This document shows positions 26,323 to 35,720 of a stretch of 49,620 nt of DNA, piece after piece. The DNA is from Treponemataceae bacterium (GTDB taxonomy: Bacteria > Spirochaetota > Spirochaetia > Treponematales > Treponemataceae). The position numbers were made by a program, and so were the translations under genes. The DNA lies in NCBI GenBank assembly GCA_024685655.1, contig JAIKVO010000067.1, forward strand, positions 1-49,620, read 5' to 3'. The notes beneath the pieces were generated by a model, which saw only the letters and a program-made list of their open reading frames with translations, was not told where the DNA came from and made no database searches. Numbering within the stretch: position 1 is the stretch's first letter; every line of letters begins with the position of its first letter.

Positions 26323-28526
26323 TGAAAAACTTCATAAAATGGCTAAAAAGCCCCAAAAGCGATTTCCTGCTATTCGTAATCGTAATAATCCTTATAAATC
26401 TTGTCGGACAGAACGCATTTTTCAGGATTGACCTTACGGAATCAAAGGCTTACTCACTTTCCGATGCAAGCCGCCGCGCAGTAAGCACACTCGACAAGCC
26501 GCTCGCGGTAAAAGTGTTCTTCACATCAAACTTGAACGCACCTTACAACAATGTTGAGCAATATTTGAAAGACATACTCACAGAATACAAGGGAGCCGCG
26601 AACAAGTATTTCAGCTGTGAGTTCTTTGACATGGAAAACGCAGAGAACCAAAAGCTTGCAAGGGAATACGGCATAAATCAGGTTCAGATTCAGGAAGTCA
26701 ACAACAACGAGATTGGCTTCAAGGCAGCGTATATGGGCGCGGCGTTCATCTACGGAGACAGCATTGAAATTCTTGACGGCATTACGTCCGAAGAAAGTCT
26801 TGAATACAACATCACGACAAAAATCACAAAGATGGTTACAACAGCCGATGTTCTTTCAGCTCTTCAAGACGATGTGACACTTACGCTTTACACAACGCCT
26901 GCTCTCAGCAAGTTCAACATAAGCGGCTTCAACCAGATTGAGCAGAGCGTAATAAACGCCTACTCCGCTGTGAACAAGAAAAATCAGGATAAAATCTCGT
27001 TTAGGCGCGTAGAACCAACCGACGAAGAGATTTCCGACTACGTTCAGAAATACGGCATCCAGTCTATCGGTTGGACGGAAAAAGACGGCTCGCAGAAACA
27101 GGGCGTAATCGGACTTGTTCTGGAGCATGGCGACACGTTCCGGCTTATCCCTCTTGAAATGGCGCAAAGCCTGTTCGGTTATGCAATTGCAGGACTTGAC
27201 GAGTTAGAGGACAATATTGCCGAAAACCTTAAGAGCCTTGTTTCCAAATCAGTTGAGATCGGCTACATCACCGGCCACGGAGAACGAGACCTTCTTGGCA
27301 GCGACTACGAAAGCGCAGCTTCGTTCCAAACCTTAATAGAAGATACTTACACGCTCAAAACATTGGAGCTTTCGGAAGACAACATTCCGGCAAGCATCTC
27401 CACAATCGTAATAAACGGTCCGAAAACAGCGTATACCGATGAGGAGCTTTACAAGATTGACCAGTTCCTTATGCGCGGCGGAAACATCATGTTCATGATT
27501 GACCCGTACGAAGTAACTGAATCGGGCAACTACTACTCGATGCCGCAGTACAACCCGATAGACACCGGACTTAAACGGCTTCTTGAAAAGTACGGTGTTT
27601 CGCTTGGTGAAGGCTACGTTTTTGATGAACAGTGCTACGACTACTACACGAACAGCGAAAAGCTTCCGATGTATTGGGTTCCGCTCGTAAAAGATTCCGG
27701 CGTAAACAAGACACATCCGGCTACAAAGAACATGGGGAACCTGCTCTTTGTACAGAACGGCCCGCTCACCGTAACGCGCGAGAACAGCAGCGATTTTACG
27801 GCGGCTTTGCTCGCGTCAACCACGAGCAAAGCATGGACATCAACAGATTTCTACGTGCTTAACCCTAACTACATAACACCGCCAGACAGCTCCGAAAGAA
27901 AAGCAGAGCCGCTCGCCGTAATTCTTGAAGGAAACTTCCAGAGCGCGTTCGACAAAGCCCCAGAAGCCGCACTCACCGCTGAGGGCGAGGATGACGGCAC
28001 AGACGCGAATGCAAATGGCGCATCAAGCGAAACAGGCACAGCCGAATCTACCGGCGAGCTTGCAGTTTCGGCACACCTTTCTTCGAGTATCCAGAAAGGA
28101 AAGATTTTCGTATGCGCGTCGTCTTACATAACGACACCGCAACTTATAAACGACGCAACACAGCCTATATCGATTTTCGTGCGTAACGTGACCGACTACA
28201 TGAACGGAGCGGAAGAACTTTGTACAATGCGTACAAAAGGACTTTCCGAAAACTCGCTCACAACAGTGAAAGGTACGCTCGTAACGTTCATGCAGATTTT
28301 CAACCAGTATGGTCTGGCGGTTTTAATCATAATTATCGCATTGATTATCTGGAGAGTCCGCGTGGCAAGACGACGCGCAATACGCCTTACCTACAACGCC
28401 GATGACACGCGCGATGACGACAACATCCGTGTTGCCGAACAAAACGCGAAAAAACTCGCCGAGGAGGCAGAAAAAGCTGCCACAAAAGCGAAAAAACTCG
28501 CGAACAGAAAAGGAGATGCAGACTGA
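26322..28526 (+). CDS. GldG-family ABC transport auxiliary protein
   Basis: 734 residues. An N-terminal membrane segment (FLLFVIVIILINLVGQNAF) is followed by FRIDLTESKAYSLSDASR, the recognised entry of the GldG/ABC_transp_aux family, then a large extracytoplasmic domain with IGYITGHGERDLLG near residue 310, and a C-terminal membrane segment (GLAVLIIIIALIIWRV) with a basic and then Ala/Lys-rich cytosolic tail. Residues about 555-575 form a low-complexity acidic linker. The start overlaps the upstream stop (TAATG). It is thought to work with the permease in exporting or energising an unknown envelope process. Confidence 0.85.
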   Translation: MKNFIKWLKSPKSDFLLFVIVIILINLVGQNAFFRIDLTESKAYSLSDASRRAVSTLDKPLAVKVFFTSNLNAPYNNVEQYLKDILTEYKGAANKYFSCEFFDMENAENQKLAREYGINQVQIQEVNNNEIGFKAAYMGAAFIYGDSIEILDGITSEESLEYNITTKITKMVTTADVLSALQDDVTLTLYTTPALSKFNISGFNQIEQSVINAYSAVNKKNQDKISFRRVEPTDEEISDYVQKYGIQSIGWTEKDGSQKQGVIGLVLEHGDTFRLIPLEMAQSLFGYAIAGLDELEDNIAENLKSLVSKSVEIGYITGHGERDLLGSDYESAASFQTLIEDTYTLKTLELSEDNIPASISTIVINGPKTAYTDEELYKIDQFLMRGGNIMFMIDPYEVTESGNYYSMPQYNPIDTGLKRLLEKYGVSLGEGYVFDEQCYDYYTNSEKLPMYWVPLVKDSGVNKTHPATKNMGNLLFVQNGPLTVTRENSSDFTAALLASTTSKAWTSTDFYVLNPNYITPPDSSERKAEPLAVILEGNFQSAFDKAPEAALTAEGEDDGTDANANGASSETGTAESTGELAVSAHLSSSIQKGKIFVCASSYITTPQLINDATQPISIFVRNVTDYMNGAEELCTMRTKGLSENSLTTVKGTLVTFMQIFNQYGLAVLIIIIALIIWRVRVARRRAIRLTYNADDTRDDDNIRVAEQNAKKLAEEAEKAATKAKKLANRKGDAD

Positions 28527-29416
28527 TGAACACACTTAAAGTTCGTAAGATTGTGCTTCTTGCACTAATACCCATACTGCTCTGCATTTATATCTTGCAG
28601 ATAGTCACACAAAACCGCAACACGGTCAAATATCTTACTGTGGAAGAAGAAGCCGACACTGTTCTTATAACAAAAGGTGACGGCACTGAAATAAAAGTTT
28701 TCAAAGAAGGTGACGCCTGGTTCGTTGGCGACAAGAAATACCCGGTAGACGACTCGACTGCAACATCGCTCATAGCGGATATTTCTTCAATAAAACTGCT
28801 TGAAACGGTTTCCTCTTCCGAAGCGGATAAAGCGCGGTACGGTCTTGACGAGGCAGCCGCCGTCACCGCCGCACTGTACAAAGACGGAAAACTTCTGCGC
28901 ACAGTAGGCGTTGGAAAAGCTTCTCCGACAGCACAGCAGACATACATCACCGTTGACGGCGGAAAAGATATCTATCTTTCTTCAGGTTCTATAACGAGCG
29001 ACTTTGCAAAATCCATGGACGATATCCGAAGCAAAAAAGTCTATTCGCTTGACGTAGCAAAGGTGACGGCGGCAACAGCCACAACGCCAGATGACGGCGC
29101 GGTTTCCGTTTTCAGAAATTCTGAGGACAACAGCTGGCTCGGTGGCGACAGTTCCAAAGTCTCTTCGTGGATTTCGAACATCACAAGCCTTAACGTGCAA
29201 AGCTGGGCAAGCGAAAACACTGTGCTTCCTTCAGAAGCCGCAGGTTCCGTAACGCTCACGGCAGATGGCAAACAAATCTCTGTGACTGTTTACTCAACCG
29301 ATGATGAATCGAAATATATCTGCACTTGCTCCGAAACGCCATATCCGTTCTACCTATCTTCTTATTCTGCGGAAAAATACATAAAAACCGCCGCAGACTT
29401 CATGACAGAAGAGTAG
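28526..29416 (+). CDS. DUF4340 protein of the Gld-type operon
   Basis: 296 residues: one N-terminal membrane anchor (IVLLALIPILLCIYILQIV) and a periplasmic beta-rich domain containing WFVGDKKYPVDDSTATSLI and RYGLDEAAAVTAALYKDGK, the repeated DUF4340 pattern. Families with DUF4340 regularly follow GldG-like genes. The start overlaps the previous stop (TGATG). It ends the operon; a palindromic element follows at once. Confidence 0.82.
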   Translation: MNTLKVRKIVLLALIPILLCIYILQIVTQNRNTVKYLTVEEEADTVLITKGDGTEIKVFKEGDAWFVGDKKYPVDDSTATSLIADISSIKLLETVSSSEADKARYGLDEAAAVTAALYKDGKLLRTVGVGKASPTAQQTYITVDGGKDIYLSSGSITSDFAKSMDDIRSKKVYSLDVAKVTAATATTPDDGAVSVFRNSEDNSWLGGDSSKVSSWISNITSLNVQSWASENTVLPSEAAGSVTLTADGKQISVTVYSTDDESKYICTCSETPYPFYLSSYSAEKYIKTAADFMTEE

Positions 29417-29419
29417 GAT

Positions 29420-29560
29420 TCTGGGCGTGTCCCGCCATTCAACCGGAATCGGCTGAATGGCGGGTCGGGCTTTTCAGGGTTTCATTCCGTCGCTTCGCGC
29501 CGGAACAGTCCGATGTTCGGATGCAAGCAACCGAACATCGGGCTGCCCTTACAATCCCTC
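29420..29560. repeat. GC-rich double-hairpin intergenic element, copy A
   Basis: CCCGCCATTCA (29431-29441) pairs with TGAATGGCGGG (29454-29464), an 11-bp stem; CCGATGTTCGG (29510-29520) pairs with CCGAACATCGG (29531-29541), an 11-bp stem with a 10-base loop. A linker containing GTCGGGCTTTTCAGGGTTTC joins them. The layout resembles the element at 39220-39350 read on the other strand. Confidence 0.65.
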
Positions 29561-29691
29561 ACGCTGTTCGGGTTGTGCAAGGAATCTTATTGTAATGTCC
29601 GCTCTCGCGGACACACTATCCCTCACGTTGTTCGGGTTGTGCAAGGAATCTTATTGTAATGTCCGCTCTCGCGGACACACAATCCCTCACG
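29554..29691. repeat. 64-bp tandem direct repeat, two full units and a 10-base remnant
   Basis: Units at 29554-29617 and 29618-29681 differ at only two positions; the third starts at 29682 and breaks off after ATCCCTCACG. Each unit contains a 7-bp hairpin TGTCCGC-TCTC-GCGGACA. The array abuts the 3' end of the AAA+ gene (stop at 29694). Confidence 0.9.
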
Positions 29692-29693
29692 CA

Positions 29694-31874
29694 TCAAAAG
29701 CTAAAACCGATTGTCTCTTGTTTGACATCCGCATAAGTTTTCAGCAAATACTCCCTCTTAATGGAATCAAGTTTTTTTCTTTTTCCATTGATGTCGAAAG
29801 AAGCAGCCAAGACCATATTAATACAAGGTTGTATTCGTCTCGGCTTGCCTTCGCTCATCTTATAAATTAAGTCTATCTCTTCTTCCGACAGATTTTCAGG
29901 AACCAGTTCGTTATGCGAATTCTTAAAAATTTCATACTGATATGGAATTAATGTATTTTTTAGCTCCTGTTCTGTGTAGTCTCTAAACTTAATGACATTA
30001 ATTCTATCCATTAACGCTTCTGGGATCGGCTCCAAAGAATTCGCCGTACATATAAAGTTTGGCTGGAAATTGTGTATCGGCACATCAAAAAAATTATCAT
30101 GAAAATGTCTCATATTTTCCTTTTCAAGCAGCTGAAGCAGAACTGGGAAAACCTGCTGGTTTGAATCGCTAGTGTGCCCACATTGCGAAATTTCGTCACA
30201 GACGATGAGCGGATTTAAGCAGTTGATTTTTTCTGTTGCTTCCCAAATTCCTGCGAGAATTTTCCCATGAGAAGCTGCCTTATACTCAGGCGTGCTTCCG
30301 AGAAGAGCACTTACTCCTCCTCCAGTTCCCATCGGGAGGAACACATCATTATCCTGCCCGAAGACCTCTCGGAGCTGTCTGCAAAGAAGAGTTTTTCCAC
30401 ATCCTGGACTTCCCAAGAACAGTAATGGAGGCAAACTTATTATCTGTCCTTTTGAGAACAAAATGGCATTTTGCAAAAATGCAAAGAGCTTTTCTTTATC
30501 CAAGATATTCGGATGCAAATTAAACAAGTTTTCAATTTTCCCGAACATTTCTTTGTCTGCCCTTAAATAATCAGCTGGAGCCTGTAACTTCTTATATATT
30601 TCTTTTATTCGCTCTCTAACAGCAGAATCGGAAGCATTCACGGTAAATTCATTATTTCCGTATCTTTTAATGAATTCTTTTTCATCGACCACCTTCAGAG
30701 CTTCAGACGAGTTTTCTTCTTCGCTGTCAAGTGAATCAACACAATTAATCTTTGAAAACAAGTCCGGAATAGATTGTATTGCATACTCTACCCCTGCGTT
30801 TTCTATCACTTTGCTGGCTTCGATAAGGAATCGATATTTCTTTTCAGAATCTGAGAGTTTTGGCAAAAAATAACAAAGAGATTTTTCTACTTCATTCGGA
30901 AACAGCTCTCTTACAATCATTACAACTCCAGCATCATCAACAGAAACCGCTATACATTCTTTATTAAAGGCATTTTTCAATTTTGAACCTGAAATAATCA
31001 GCTTCGCGTTGATTTTTTCCGCTTGAGAAGTAATCATTTTTTCTGCTTCCTTCTCAACGTTGTCATAATCATCTAGCCAAATATATTGATCTTTTAATTG
31101 ATTCTCGATCAAGAAATGCAGAATTCTAAGGCAAGCACCGGTATCACCTGCATACCAATACCGTATTTCTTCTTTTTCCAGCTTAGTGAATATATAAGAA
31201 GAACTCCACGCCCCTGTATATGTTATAAGATTACATTCAGAGAACGGTTTATCAGCATCACTACCTGTTACTTTGAAATAACTTAAATCAAACTTCTGCA
31301 TCGACGGTATTTCAGAAAGCCTTAACAGCTCATTATGAAAGACTGGTTGCAGTGTCACCATTTTTTTTGCGCCGGAAAAAGAGATTATTTCTGCCTTTAA
31401 AAGATTCTTTACAGATATCAGAACACTTTTTCTTTTACTTTGTAACACATATTCACAAAGCAAACAGAAATCTCTAAATGGAAATGGATCGTCTGATGAA
31501 TAAAAAACATCGCGAAGTGCGGATTTACAACACAACTCTATAATAATAAGCAATCGGATCTCATTCTTCGATAAACCATTAAATATAGAATTGCAACGGC
31601 AGAAGATGTTTTTTATTAGCTCCAAGTTTTTATACATTGTAACATCAAAAAATTCTCCATCATTTGCGTAAATAAATTCTTCATCCCTTACAGCATTTAT
31701 CAGGAATTTCCTATCCTCCTTTTTTTCCAAAGAAGGAACATGTAAAAAGTTTGCGATTATATTCCGTAAGCTCTTATTACGGGCGTAATAATTCTTGTGG
31801 AATTTTTTAATCGACAGTAAACCTACAAGAATATTCTGATACAGTGATCGTATTTCAAAATCGTTATTGTTCAT
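29694..31874 (-). CDS. Lon-type AAA+ ATPase without protease domain, novel N-terminus
   Basis: 726 residues. The C-terminal third is a complete AAA+ module: Walker A GSPGCGKT (488-495), a pore-loop-like GTGGGVSALLGSTPEY, Walker B LIVCDE (556-561), FFDVPIHNFQPNFICTANS with sensor-1 N612, the Arg-finger LMDRINV (R624) and sensor-2 GKPRR (679-680). The FFDVP, ATANS-like and PEALMDR phrases match Lon ATPase domains, but no Ser-Lys protease domain follows. The first 430 residues are unrecognised apart from a stretch at 212-262 that faintly recalls TOPRIM-like DUF2399/DUF2220 cores. AAGGAGA precedes the ATG. It lies 17 bases after the HD gene, in one operon. AT-rich compared with the flanking genes. 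Confidence 0.75.
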   Translation of the reverse strand: MNNNDFEIRSLYQNILVGLLSIKKFHKNYYARNKSLRNIIANFLHVPSLEKKEDRKFLINAVRDEEFIYANDGEFFDVTMYKNLELIKNIFCRCNSIFNGLSKNEIRLLIIIELCCKSALRDVFYSSDDPFPFRDFCLLCEYVLQSKRKSVLISVKNLLKAEIISFSGAKKMVTLQPVFHNELLRLSEIPSMQKFDLSYFKVTGSDADKPFSECNLITYTGAWSSSYIFTKLEKEEIRYWYAGDTGACLRILHFLIENQLKDQYIWLDDYDNVEKEAEKMITSQAEKINAKLIISGSKLKNAFNKECIAVSVDDAGVVMIVRELFPNEVEKSLCYFLPKLSDSEKKYRFLIEASKVIENAGVEYAIQSIPDLFSKINCVDSLDSEEENSSEALKVVDEKEFIKRYGNNEFTVNASDSAVRERIKEIYKKLQAPADYLRADKEMFGKIENLFNLHPNILDKEKLFAFLQNAILFSKGQIISLPPLLFLGSPGCGKTLLCRQLREVFGQDNDVFLPMGTGGGVSALLGSTPEYKAASHGKILAGIWEATEKINCLNPLIVCDEISQCGHTSDSNQQVFPVLLQLLEKENMRHFHDNFFDVPIHNFQPNFICTANSLEPIPEALMDRINVIKFRDYTEQELKNTLIPYQYEIFKNSHNELVPENLSEEEIDLIYKMSEGKPRRIQPCINMVLAASFDINGKRKKLDSIKREYLLKTYADVKQETIGFSF

Positions 31875-31891
31875 AGTTGTCTCCTTTTCTA

Positions 31892-32500
31892 TTAATTTGT
31901 ATAGAAACCGATGGTTTCTAAGTAACGCTGGCGAGTTTCCAGAAGCGAAATAAGCTCGGTATACATTGAATAATCAACCAAAAGCGCCATCGGCAAAACA
32001 AAAGCCTCAGTGTCGTTCGCTGTTCGATCTATAAAACTAGCGTCAGTAACGAATCCGAGGCTTATCATGTTTGAGATTCTGTCGGCACATTTAAGAAGCT
32101 TTGCACGAAACGAGCCATGCTCAATAATCCGTTTCAAAAAATCGGCTTTTGTCTCGTCTTGTTGTCTTGAGACCTCAAGAACTAGCTTTAATACTTCTTC
32201 GCCATCAGAATCACATTTTTTGATGATATTCTGATCGAAATCTTTTATATCCTCTAACACATCATGGATTACACTTGCTTTTAAGAGGATCGCATCAATA
32301 TAGCCGTACTCAATAAGAATCGCCAAAGTGTCAAGCTGATGGCGGAACATATTTCCGCCTGCACGACGTCCTTTACTAACGAGTAAAGTAGCAATTTCGA
32401 TATACGGTGCAAGCTTGATCTCACCAAGCCGTTCCATCGCTTGCTTTTCCATGTGACCGGGCTTATCGATCCGCATTACATCTTCCATCATTTTTGACAT
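31892..32500 (-). CDS. SpoT-like HD-domain (alarmone hydrolase-type) protein
   Basis: 202 residues from MSKMMEDVMR; GAGGAGG sits 7 bases upstream, while the longer frame to 32593 has no support. The HD superfamily metal ligands are in place: H54 (FRHQLD), H79-D80 followed by E83-D84 (HDVLED) and D140 (KCADRISNM). HD plus the ED dyad and ADRxxNM is the pattern of RelA/SpoT and Mesh1 (p)ppGpp hydrolase domains; no synthetase domain is attached, so it is a stand-alone small hydrolase type. The substrate may be ppGpp or another nucleotide. It is the first gene of the HD-AAA+ operon, transcribed from a promoter facing that of the STAND-like gene. Confidence 0.75.
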   Translation of the reverse strand: MSKMMEDVMRIDKPGHMEKQAMERLGEIKLAPYIEIATLLVSKGRRAGGNMFRHQLDTLAILIEYGYIDAILLKASVIHDVLEDIKDFDQNIIKKCDSDGEEVLKLVLEVSRQQDETKADFLKRIIEHGSFRAKLLKCADRISNMISLGFVTDASFIDRTANDTEAFVLPMALLVDYSMYTELISLLETRQRYLETIGFYTN

Positions 32501-32565
32501 TTTGGGCCTCCTCGTTGAGTTTTGATAAAAAAGTGAAATTTCTCCACTCCTAAAGTGTATGAAGC

Positions 32566-32593
32566 AGTATATGCATGAAAAAAAGATATGCAA
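32566..32593 (-). promoter_or_regulatory. Promoter of the HD-AAA+ operon
   Basis: Minus strand TTGCAT (32588-32593), 16 bp, TATACT (32566-32571). The predicted start near 32559 leaves a leader of about 60 bases with a strong ribosome site. Confidence 0.6.
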
Positions 32594-32603
32594 GAATTTT
32601 TTA

Positions 32604-32666
32604 TAGGACTTTTCCTATTTCTTCTCTAGCTCATTTGCTTATTTGAAATTTCTAGGAAAATTCCTA
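32604..32666. promoter_or_regulatory. Pair of TAGGA-n4-TCCTA palindromes, candidate operators
   Basis: TAGGACTTTTCCTA (32604-32617) and the perfect palindrome TAGGAAAATTCCTA (32653-32666) start 49 bp apart, in the middle of the divergent region. The first lies 10 bp behind the HD -35 box. They look like sites for one dimeric regulator able to control both directions. Confidence 0.5.
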
Positions 32667-32827
32667 AAAACAAGGGTTTTATTCTGTATAAAATTGAGTT
32701 ATCATTTAGGAAAGGAGGCATTTATATAGAAAAAACCATAATCTAGCATAATATGCTGCTGAAAACATGATAACCGTGTGTTAAAATTTTATAATAGTTT
32801 CATTTATACAATGGGAGATAAATATAT

Positions 32828-34429
32828 ATGCCAAAAGTACTTAAACCGAATAAAGGGAAAGCCTTCCTATATTTAAGAGATTATCTAGCTGTTCTATTAG
32901 ATAAAAACTATTCTGAAATCAAAGAAGATGTTGCTCACGTATTAAATAAAAGTGTTAAATCAATTGAAAAATACTGGTGCGGAGTTGGTTCGTTTGACTT
33001 TTGGCAAGCACAAGCCATAGTCGATCTGATTTTAGGAGAAGGCACTTTTGAATATGATTATTATGAAAATAAAAAAAATAATGTCAAACTGGAGGGGAAA
33101 AGATACGGAGCATTAAGATACGATGAAGCTCACGTTTTAAAAAATATTCTGATTTATTTCTTAAAACAACATGACACTGGAAAAATTGGTGAAAAACTGG
33201 GTTATGAAGAAATTATCAACAAGTATTATAAGTCTGCAGTGACATTATCAGAAACAAAATCTTCAGGCACTAAAACGGCTTCCGATCTTGCTTTAGATCA
33301 GCTTCCCAAAAAAGACGATATAGTCCAAAAAGATATAATAAACAAAATCAAGTGCGCTATACAAGCAAAACAATATGTATTTTTCTCAGGGAACAGTGGC
33401 TCAGGAAAAAAGCGTAAAGTAAACAGTATTATAAATGAATACATCAATACCTACGATTTTAAGAAGTTCTGTATCGATTTCGAAACTGATGAAATGACGT
33501 ATCTTAATTTCCTAAAAAAAATTGAAACTATCTTTAGCAGAGACTCACAAGAATTATCCCAGGAAAAATTGGAAAGAAAAGCGGCAGAACATCTTTCTCA
33601 TCACAGATCAATCATATTCATCAATGGTTTTGATCTTTTTAAAGACGATAACGACAGAAGGAATATCATATTTTTCTTGAAGCACGATTTGAAGGATGAG
33701 AATATCGTCATCATAACAAGCAATAAATCAATGAGCGAATATGAATACATAAAAGAGCCATTTTCAGAAGTAGAAGACCGTGAATACACAGAAAGTGAGT
33801 GTATGATACTTATGAAATCTTTAAAAAATGATAAACCATATTGTGATGCAATAAAAGTTTATAAAAAACTGTACAAGCTTGCCTATGAAAAAGGGGATAA
33901 AAATCCATCTCAAATGATTTATTATCTATACGAATTTTCCAAACAATTAGTAGAAGAAGATTTGTACAATAATTTTAACATAGAAGCGAATAAATTTCTG
34001 TTCGGAGAATTCTTAAAAGATTTAGATGAAAATTGCCTAATAGTTTTGGTAACACTTTCTCTTTTTTCGAATCCCATTCCAAAAGATACATTGTTTGAAA
34101 TTTCTGGGCTGAAAGATGTTAGTGAACTGACAAAAACCCTTGGAAAACTAAAAAAGAAACTGCTTATAAAAGTCGAGGATTCAGAATCAAACGATGTTCT
34201 GTATTCTCTTCTTAATAAAATAAAGATTGCTATAGAAGATGAAAAACAAAACCACCCAGAAAAATACGAACAAATAATTTCTAACTGGGCTGATTATTAT
34301 ATAGAGATTTCTAAAGATGAGAAAAACGAACTGAACTCAGAAACTGGTAATATCATAAGAGTATGGAATTACTGCGAAGAAGTTGGAAGGTGGGATGATG
34401 TCCGCGTTTTAGAGAAAAGAATCTGGTAA
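32828..34429 (+). CDS. STAND-like P-loop NTPase, possibly C-terminally truncated
   Basis: 533 residues. Residues 1-150 are a helical N-terminal module that I do not recognise, perhaps DNA- or partner-binding. An NTPase module follows: P-loop VFFSGNSGSGKKRK (188-195; Lys replaces the usual Ser/Thr), Walker-B-like SIIFINGFDL (261-270), NIVIITSN (292-299) equivalent to the RNBS-B strand, and a winged-helix-like ENCLIVLVTLSLFSNPIPKD near 401-420. The last 45 residues (NIIRVWNYCEEVGRWDDVRV) resemble the first helices of a TPR-type sensor array and then stop. Such NTPases are switches in signalling and phage defence. A TATAAT box lies 32 bases upstream. Strongly AT-rich. Confidence 0.6.
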   Translation: MPKVLKPNKGKAFLYLRDYLAVLLDKNYSEIKEDVAHVLNKSVKSIEKYWCGVGSFDFWQAQAIVDLILGEGTFEYDYYENKKNNVKLEGKRYGALRYDEAHVLKNILIYFLKQHDTGKIGEKLGYEEIINKYYKSAVTLSETKSSGTKTASDLALDQLPKKDDIVQKDIINKIKCAIQAKQYVFFSGNSGSGKKRKVNSIINEYINTYDFKKFCIDFETDEMTYLNFLKKIETIFSRDSQELSQEKLERKAAEHLSHHRSIIFINGFDLFKDDNDRRNIIFFLKHDLKDENIVIITSNKSMSEYEYIKEPFSEVEDREYTESECMILMKSLKNDKPYCDAIKVYKKLYKLAYEKGDKNPSQMIYYLYEFSKQLVEEDLYNNFNIEANKFLFGEFLKDLDENCLIVLVTLSLFSNPIPKDTLFEISGLKDVSELTKTLGKLKKKLLIKVEDSESNDVLYSLLNKIKIAIEDEKQNHPEKYEQIISNWADYYIEISKDEKNELNSETGNIIRVWNYCEEVGRWDDVRVLEKRIW

Positions 34430-34535
34430 CAGCTTGATTCGATCAAATACGGATTTATGCATTTAATCACATATCTCCAATACATCCAACATCTTTTTAT
34501 AGATGAAATTATTACCCTGATTAATAATTTTTTCT

Positions 34536-34564
34536 TTGATATTAGGATTTGTTTCTGGTAGAAT
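34536..34564 (+). promoter_or_regulatory. Hybrid kinase promoter, leaderless configuration
   Basis: TTGATA (34536-34541), 17 bp, TAGAAT (34559-34564), 7 bases to the ATG at 34572. The TTG inside the -35 box is in frame with the gene but is not a credible start. Confidence 0.6.
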
Positions 34565-34571
34565 ATTTTCT

Positions 34572-35720
34572 ATGCATGAGAAATCCAATATCTTATCAAG
34601 GCTGAGTCATGAACTAAGAACTCCTCTCAATTCCATTATCGGGCTTAACCGCCTTATTTTGGAGAACCCAGGAGATTCTGACAACGTAAAAAAAATATCG
34701 ACTCAAATAGACTTAGCATCATCTTTTATCTTGAACCTTGTAGATAATATTATTGACGTAGACGAGATTGATTCAAAGGATATGACGCTAAATCCTTCCG
34801 TTTTCTCGCCGAAACAACTGCTCGAAAGCCTTTGTATAACATACAAAACGGCAGCAGAGAACGAAAATCTTACTTTCCAGGCAACCATACCAGAACCATT
34901 CCCAGAATACGTATCGCTTGATAAAATCCGGCTTTCACTGGTTCTGAACAACCTTCTTTCTAATGCTGTACGTTTCAACAAAAAAGGCGGTCGCATTGAC
35001 TTTATCGCAGAAGATGTAGGCACATCCGCAGGCGGTCTTCATACACTTCGTTTCACCGTTGCTGATTCAGGTATTGGTATACAGGAAGATAAACTGCCTA
35101 ATATTTTCAATTTATTTTCCAGCGTTGCGGAAACAGACCACAAAGCAGTGTACGGTGCAGGCATGGGGCTTTTTGTATCCGACAGCATAATCCGTATGAT
35201 GGGAAGCAAAATCAACGTAAGAAGCGTTGAAGGCGAAGGCAGCACATTCTGGTTCGAAATCAGCGCATATGTTCCAGGATCAGAGGAGACAAAACCTCTT
35301 GACGGAAAGGAAGAGCTTAGAGGAACGACGATTCTTATAGCGGATGATAATAATATAAACTGCAGCATAGTGAAACATCTTCTTGAAAGCTTCGGATGTA
35401 CGGTTGAAGTAACAACGAACGGAGAAGATGCTGTCGCGCTTTTCTCTGCTTCAGAGCCGCACCACTACGATGCGATTCTTCTTGACATACGAATGCCGGG
35501 TATTGACGGACTTGAGACATGCAGGCGTATCCGTGCGCTAGGCGGAGAAGGTTCGTTCAGCATTGACGCGCTGGAAATCCCGATTATAGCGATGACGGCG
35601 AACGTAATGGATTCTGACAGACAGAAATCATTCGAGGCTGGAATGAACGCCCATATAAACAAACCTATAGACCCAGACACACTATACACGGTACTTGCGT
35701 CAAGCATTGTCAGAAACTAA
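34572..35720 (+). CDS. Hybrid histidine kinase-receiver protein lacking a sensor domain
   Basis: 382 residues. It opens directly with the HisKA helix (MHEKSNILSRLSHELRTPLN, phospho-accepting His13), then a HATPase with NNLLSNAVRF, ADSGIGI and GAGMGLFVSDSI, then a receiver with ILIADDNNIN, acceptor Asp in LLDIRMPGIDG, MTANV and the Lys in HINKPI. No PAS, membrane or other input domain precedes it, so it must be recruited by a partner, for example the EAL protein or a chemoreceptor. A stop codon lies in frame just upstream of the promoter, so nothing larger can be encoded. It ends at a strong terminator. Confidence 0.88.
   Translation: MHEKSNILSRLSHELRTPLNSIIGLNRLILENPGDSDNVKKISTQIDLASSFILNLVDNIIDVDEIDSKDMTLNPSVFSPKQLLESLCITYKTAAENENLTFQATIPEPFPEYVSLDKIRLSLVLNNLLSNAVRFNKKGGRIDFIAEDVGTSAGGLHTLRFTVADSGIGIQEDKLPNIFNLFSSVAETDHKAVYGAGMGLFVSDSIIRMMGSKINVRSVEGEGSTFWFEISAYVPGSEETKPLDGKEELRGTTILIADDNNINCSIVKHLLESFGCTVEVTTNGEDAVALFSASEPHHYDAILLDIRMPGIDGLETCRRIRALGGEGSFSIDALEIPIIAMTANVMDSDRQKSFEAGMNAHINKPIDPDTLYTVLASSIVRN

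Follow-up and report, generated by a model that had tools for sequence, protein, structure and literature searches.

What holds together three AT-rich genes that bear no apparent relation to the genes on either side of them? This question is raised by a locus in the 3.16-Mb draft genome of a Treponemataceae bacterium, which we analyzed within a 49,620-nucleotide stretch of DNA (hereafter, the window; contig JAIKVO010000067.1, here C145). On the minus strand, a gene encoding an AAA+ ATPase (29694–31874; an intact open reading frame [ORF] of 726 amino acids [aa]) follows, after a gap of 17 bases, a gene encoding an HD-domain protein (ORF 31892–32593, likely 31892–32500; intact, 202 aa). A third gene, which encodes a STAND-like protein (32828–34429, plus strand; intact ORF, 533 aa), points away from both across a divergent control region of 327 bases (32501–32827), counted from the HD ATG to the STAND-like ATG. 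The HD gene likely starts at the ATG at 32500, which has GGAGG ahead of it at 32507–32511, and not at the TTG at 32593. An earlier note, made from the sequence alone, had described this layout, its AT-richness and two palindromes in the control region, all of which were borne out, and had proposed that the genes form one functional module. Our answer, which we hold tentatively and at slightly less than even confidence, is that they constitute a recurrent, horizontally mobile accessory module of gut Treponema, in which an operator-controlled operon for a small alarmone hydrolase (SAH; the HD protein) and the AAA+ protein would be switched by the STAND-like protein.

The evidence that carries this reading is joint recurrence. 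Homologues were sought in 274 Treponemataceae genomes, with light sampling beyond this family. Full-length AAA+ homologues (∼32–44% identity) were found in six other genomes (G620, G631, G568, G597, G517 and G627), and a truncated one in G485. The whole trio is present in three of these Treponema genomes, at unrelated sites and in three arrangements: HD-AAA-STAND all on the plus strand (locus L189, G631), the divergent plan of the window with STAND on the minus and HD-AAA on the plus strand (L193, G627), and a plus-strand STAND gene facing AAA-HD on the minus strand (L192, G517). In G568 (L190) the STAND-like (minus) and AAA+ (plus) genes are divergent without an HD gene, in G597 (L191) the AAA+ gene is accompanied by a divergent 156-aa ORF that resembles the N-terminal part of the STAND-like protein by eye only, and in G620 (L188) the AAA+ gene stands alone near a contig end. 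Across the seven loci with a full-length AAA+ gene, the window included, the STAND-like gene is adjacent in five and the HD gene in four, and the HD–AAA gap is short in every trio locus (17, 24, 41 and 21 bases). Flanking genes differ between loci, except that L190 and L194 have a common aromatic-amino-acid gene neighborhood. The homologues thus do co-occur, and the proposal of one functional module, which homologues that never co-occur would have contradicted, is upheld by the three trio genomes and by the AAA+–STAND-like pair of G568. The AAA+ and STAND-like proteins may form the core of the module, with the SAH as a dedicated partner from the AAA+ operon; this view forms part of our best explanation and shares its just-under-even standing.

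The idea of an orphan trio was rejected as a sampling effect: no full-length homologue had appeared in 99 relatives, in 393 evenly drawn genomes of the phylum or when viral and genome contigs were scanned for patterns, yet the family-wide search found them. A contig scan based on the HD alignment relied on the motifs [AS]GGNMFRH and LKCADRIS; because these are lost in the trio HD proteins outside the window, it returned almost only the housekeeping SAHs linked to valS, and it gives no basis for denying trio copies elsewhere. A phage or plasmid origin was likewise rejected, as phages, plasmids and IMG/VR contigs contained no real AAA+ or STAND-like homologue, only Lon AAA matches. Matches at L061, L078 and L079 look like chance. 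As a separate observation, VWA, PP2C-like and Ser/Thr kinase-like genes lie near the trio of L189 (13602–18500), the kinase weakly matching the PD-T4-6 models of PADLOC (2e-11).

In the window, the trio lies in an accessory block (29464–34471) that is flanked by an ABC operon of the DUF4340/GldG type and by a gene for a hybrid histidine kinase. Homology to G002, a genome of the same genus, breaks off after 29463 and restarts at 34472, and an unrelated 340-aa ORF occupies the corresponding gap; in G001, also of this genus, the DUF4340 and histidine kinase genes are adjacent, with ∼190 bp between them. This empty site and the alternative ORF confirm the earlier statement that the trio has no link to its neighbors. 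The block is not fixed, with no AAA+ homologue in any of the six other genomes of the genus, and its GC content is 35.4%, compared to 44.5% in the remaining window. A chimeric assembly is unlikely, since synteny with relatives holds on both sides of the block within a single contig. Judged by these sequence comparisons, the ∼5-kb AT-rich block is an insertion. No non-coding RNA was found in it by Rfam.

The HD protein had been called a SpoT-like hydrolase, and our analyses agree. It matches Protein Data Bank entry 7p1y with an E value of 1.5e-64, with weaker matches to Mesh1 and to the hydrolase domains of long RSH proteins, and it consists of a single HD domain of 202 aa, within the SAH range of 180–210 aa. 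Residues H54, H79-D80, E83-D84, D140, R141 and N144 are invariant, and the catalytic residues are all kept. By homology and motif content, it is a small alarmone hydrolase. Tde-SAH, a characterized enzyme of 205 aa with D74 in its motif, hydrolyses (pp)pGpp and (p)ppApp (PMC10434055). The window protein very probably belongs to the same family, because a tail of 131 residues after the HD-motif Asp is common to Tde-SAH, 7p1y and the Treponema denticola-like ORFs of G036 and G020; 7p1y is near-identical to T. denticola-group ORFs, and Tde-SAH was compared by its length and D74. The 7p1y chain has E-N where T. denticola-group genomes have E-D in HDxxED, possibly an engineered mutant, and no paper on this entry was found in the searched literature.

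The trio SAH resembles Tde-SAH in its single ∼200-aa HD domain and motif residues, with T. denticola-like orthologues having the same 131-residue tail, but no AAA+ or STAND partners are reported for Tde-SAH, whereas the trio SAH belongs to a separate clade and is an extra copy. The four trio HD proteins form a clade of their own (support 97/93), apart from the valS-linked SAHs and from a lone copy in L080. An HD match is present in 87 of 99 relatives, where one close homologue per genome is the rule, and all but 2 of the 80 nearest SAH copies in the GTDB contig collection (78/80) adjoin valS. The genome of the window retains its valS-linked SAH on contig C133, so the trio SAH is an additional gene; a 181-aa Mesh1-like protein encoded on C215 differs in its layout. 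Proteins with a PF04607 synthetase domain number three in this genome (C174, C150 and C266). RelA_SpoT synthetase (PF04607) has no match on the window contig, and no alarmone synthetase was recognized among the ORFs listed for the trio loci. Two further SAH genes were observed: a second copy in Treponema sp. UBA3649 (L080, 5989–6582), which adjoins mnmG without AAA+ or STAND-like neighbors in a genome that has another copy too, and an SAH of this type, 46% identical, in a 735-kb uncultured phage genome (LR756501.1, 356399–356911).

The second gene of the operon had been described as a protease-less Lon-type AAA+ ATPase, a description that stands. Its product has an N-terminal region (residues ∼1–390), conserved among the seven members over ∼390 aa with no match to anything known, followed by a Lon-type AAA+ module (∼400–700). 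The module matches Pfam AAA (1.5e-9) and TIGR00763 (lon; 8.9e-21 over 484–641, the AAA module only), and the family profile matches solved Lon chains with an E value of 1e-24. Walker A and B, sensor 1, the Arg finger and sensor 2 are kept in all seven members. Neither a protease domain nor a Lon N-terminal domain was detected in the protein, which has no Lon_C match and ends soon after the lid. On profile and motif evidence, the protein is a Lon-type ATPase that has no protease and whose motifs are intact. It resembles Lon protease (LonA) in its AAA+ module, where sensor 1 ("TAN") and the finger ("(D/N)R") are both Lon-like, but differs in being without the Ser-Lys protease domain and in its unrelated 390-aa N-terminal region. 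A second, distinct family of protease-less Lon-type AAA proteins occurs in a conserved Treponema gene pair, p727 and p468 (G017, G340, G278 and G321), where p468 is homologous over residues 399–699 of the window protein (157 bits), within the AAA module only; this pair differs from the trio in its other, Cdc48/IetA-like AAA protein (p727), in the zinc-ribbon-like N terminus of p468, and in having no SAH and no STAND-like gene. The pair, encoding 727 and then ∼470 aa, lies at L072 9760–13381, L175 6210–9850, L176 5947–9587 and L177 21–2680, the G017 copy being near ParA, RepA and DNA methylase genes. Homology between the N termini of the window protein and p727 was considered and rejected, being without statistical support. 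The anti-phage system IetAS has an AAA-type ATPase core in common with the trio; however, the window protein gives only a marginal, fragmentary IetA match (0.0055), and the block contains no subtilisin-like protease gene.

For the third gene, the earlier assignment to divergent STAND-like NTPases held in part. The family has five members of 414–570 aa with 21–38% identity, those outside the window standing beside AAA+ in L189, L190, L192 and L193. Its profile weakly matches Cdc6/Orc1 (2qby; E value of 0.002) and the ArsR-type winged helix of YgaV (3cuo; 4.6e-4). nSTAND3 weakly matches three of the five members (best, 8e-4; the window protein is below the cut-off), and NPHP3_N gives weak matches to single members. 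The N terminus looks like a helix-turn-helix by eye, without profile support. Intact Walker A and B motifs and C-terminal sensor repeats are missing, so that the sensing role proposed earlier is conjectural. The P-loop GxxxxGK is followed by K, S, K, N and N in the five members and N or E takes the place of the Walker-B Asp, which makes ATP hydrolysis doubtful, and there is no repeat domain, since members end at or soon after the winged helix. Truncation of the gene at its right edge was rejected given the 414–570-aa lengths in the family. STAND defense NTPases such as Avs resemble this protein in what would be, on its weak profile matches, a P-loop NTPase followed by a winged helix, and are distinguished from it by the mostly lost P-loop S/T and Walker-B Asp, the AAA+-like sensor-1 Asn and the missing C-terminal repeats of the trio protein.

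The two palindromes of the control region, TAGGACTTTTCCTA (32604–32617) and TAGGAAAATTCCTA (32653–32666), both have the form TAGGA-N4-TCCTA. A pair of palindromes with the same arms, with at least two G/C per arm, arose in 1 of 5,000 dinucleotide shuffles of the control region. The exact form occurs twice in the window, once upstream of the AAA gene in L190 and once upstream of the HD gene in L192, the latter two being exact copies of the first palindrome. L189 has a one-mismatch copy of the second (TGGGAAAATTCCTA) upstream of its HD gene and, at a distance of 54 bp, a further, degenerate copy. Measured from their centers, the sites are 74–160 bp upstream of the first start codon in the SAH–AAA+ operon. 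No exact site was found in 798 kb of background from other Treponema loci, and the chance of at least two sites among the seven other upstream regions is about P = 5e-6 to 9e-6. In L189 and L192 the STAND-like gene does not diverge from the operon, which assigns the element to the SAH–AAA+ promoter. We regard it as a conserved, operator-like control site of the SAH–AAA+ operon.

At the left edge of the block, a 64-nt tandem repeat of 2.2 copies (29551–29692) abuts the AAA+ stop codon, and palindromes lie at 29431–29464 and 29506–29545. The repeat and palindromic element noted earlier are therefore present, but the repeat does not mark the block: it belongs to a dispersed family with further copies on contigs C129, C248, C247, C201 and C149 of the same genome, and for this reason is no marker on its own. 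It is probably an edge feature that lies outside the system. The G002 gene at the insertion site (L069, 1671–2693) is lipoprotein-like, so that this site, flanked by the DUF4340 and histidine kinase genes, varies in content. The only SAH gene of T. denticola-like genomes (g15; L166–L168) sits immediately upstream of an operon for an ABC transporter that is similar in general type to the left flank of the block (28526–29416), either by chance or as a shared hot spot. Disruption of the window histidine kinase (34536–35720) by the insertion was rejected, since its homologues begin at the same place; the TTG listed as its start (34536) is probably incorrect, the G001 and G002 homologues suggesting an ATG near 34572.

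How might such a module work? The sequences show an inserted cassette whose genes keep company in several genomes, with a hydrolase and an ATPase that both look active and a conserved control site. We infer, rather than observe, the operator-binding protein, the substrate of the SAH in vivo, the target of the AAA+ protein, the trigger and the role in defense or stress. The STAND-like protein, with its HTH-like N terminus, Cdc6/STAND-like fold and winged helix, would be a signal-responsive switch that controls or partners the AAA+ protein, and expression of the SAH–AAA+ operon would be set at the TAGGA-N4-TCCTA operator or operators. With the operon on, the SAH would strip the 3′-pyrophosphate from (pp)pGpp/(p)ppApp-type nucleotides and the AAA+ ring, being without a protease, may remodel a protein target, the net effect being a switch, responsive to stress or phage, by which alarmone levels are reset. 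A defense or stress function is plausible. Several observations weigh against this scheme. The SAH is missing from three of the seven full-length AAA+ loci and is thus not obligatory; the operator sequence is absent upstream in L193, L191 and L188, and as L193 has a STAND-like gene, there is no one-to-one match of STAND-like protein and operator. The P-loop S/T is lost in four of the five STAND-like proteins, the block shows no integrase gene or other gene for mobility, and no trio protein significantly matches any defense model of PADLOC-DB 2.0.0. AlphaFold2 single-sequence models, run without homologue alignments, had predicted local distance difference test scores of 36–37, no useful confidence.

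Other explanations fit parts of these data. The trio being rare, patchy, AT-rich and at unrelated sites in different genomes would suit an anti-phage or abortive system, in which the STAND-like and AAA+ proteins form a complex that senses and executes and the SAH, as effector, collapses pools of alarmones (or, e.g., NADPH) in infected cells. The L189 trio lies near the accessory VWA/PP2C/kinase cluster with its weak PD-T4-6 match (2e-11), and metazoan Mesh1 SAH is reported to be able to hydrolyse NADPH (PMC9765508); against this stand the missing PADLOC matches, sensor repeats and known toxic effector domain, and we consider it rather unlikely. The same source ties SAHs to self-resistance against toxic alarmone synthetases (PMC9765508). 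Together with the known toxSAS modules (PMC11782079) and the hydrolysis of (p)ppApp as well as (pp)pGpp by Tde-SAH, this would accord with an immunity or antitoxin role, in which the SAH would guard the cell against toxic alarmones from toxSAS or (p)ppApp/(p)ppGpp synthetase toxins that enter it, with the AAA+–STAND-like pair as its regulator or as trigger of a toxin–antitoxin-like module. The trio does resemble toxSAS/SAH toxin–antitoxin modules in that its SAH lies in an accessory cassette, but it differs from them in that no adjacent alarmone synthetase toxin was recognized, with no RelA_SpoT match on the window contig and none recognized in the listed trio-locus ORFs, and the AAA+ and STAND-like genes occur without the SAH in L190; such a role is distinctly improbable.

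We place at the same low level a housekeeping type of stress regulation, in which the trio would be an accessory cassette for alarmone turnover in starvation and the STAND-like gene would encode an ordinary divergent transcription regulator: the divergent layout of the window and L193, the winged helix and the conserved operator speak for it, and the strongly patchy distribution, the changes of site and the nondivergent STAND-like genes of L189 and L192 against. That unrelated cargo genes came together by chance might be argued from the AAA+ genes without an SAH (L188, L190 and L191) and the second SAH without AAA+ in L080. Given three further trio loci in different orders, a separate SAH clade and a common operator, this is highly improbable, and a chance neighborhood is practically excluded. 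The operator-controlled, mobile SAH–AAA+–STAND-like module remains our preferred explanation. A more specific version, an undescribed conflict or stress system in which a dedicated SAH is controlled by the AAA+ protein together with a STAND/Cdc6-like switch of degenerate sequence, so that a mobile cassette overrides the host stringent response when triggered (e.g., by phage), is possible but well short of an even prospect.

The individual parts belong to known families. Their combination appears to be undescribed, no paper on it having been found in the searched literature, which took in few subscription papers, with a real chance of its being a new system. Where alarmone hydrolases are known from accessory loci, they are mainly antidotes against toxins that synthesize alarmones. 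In the trio, a hydrolase lineage of its own is joined to ATPase-type partners, with no synthetase among them. Because the module recurs in several genomes, consists of defined proteins and has a short conserved operator, it can be tested directly in laboratory hosts. Should the cassette act on alarmones in infected or stressed cells, it would amount to a mobile device for editing the central stress signal of its host.

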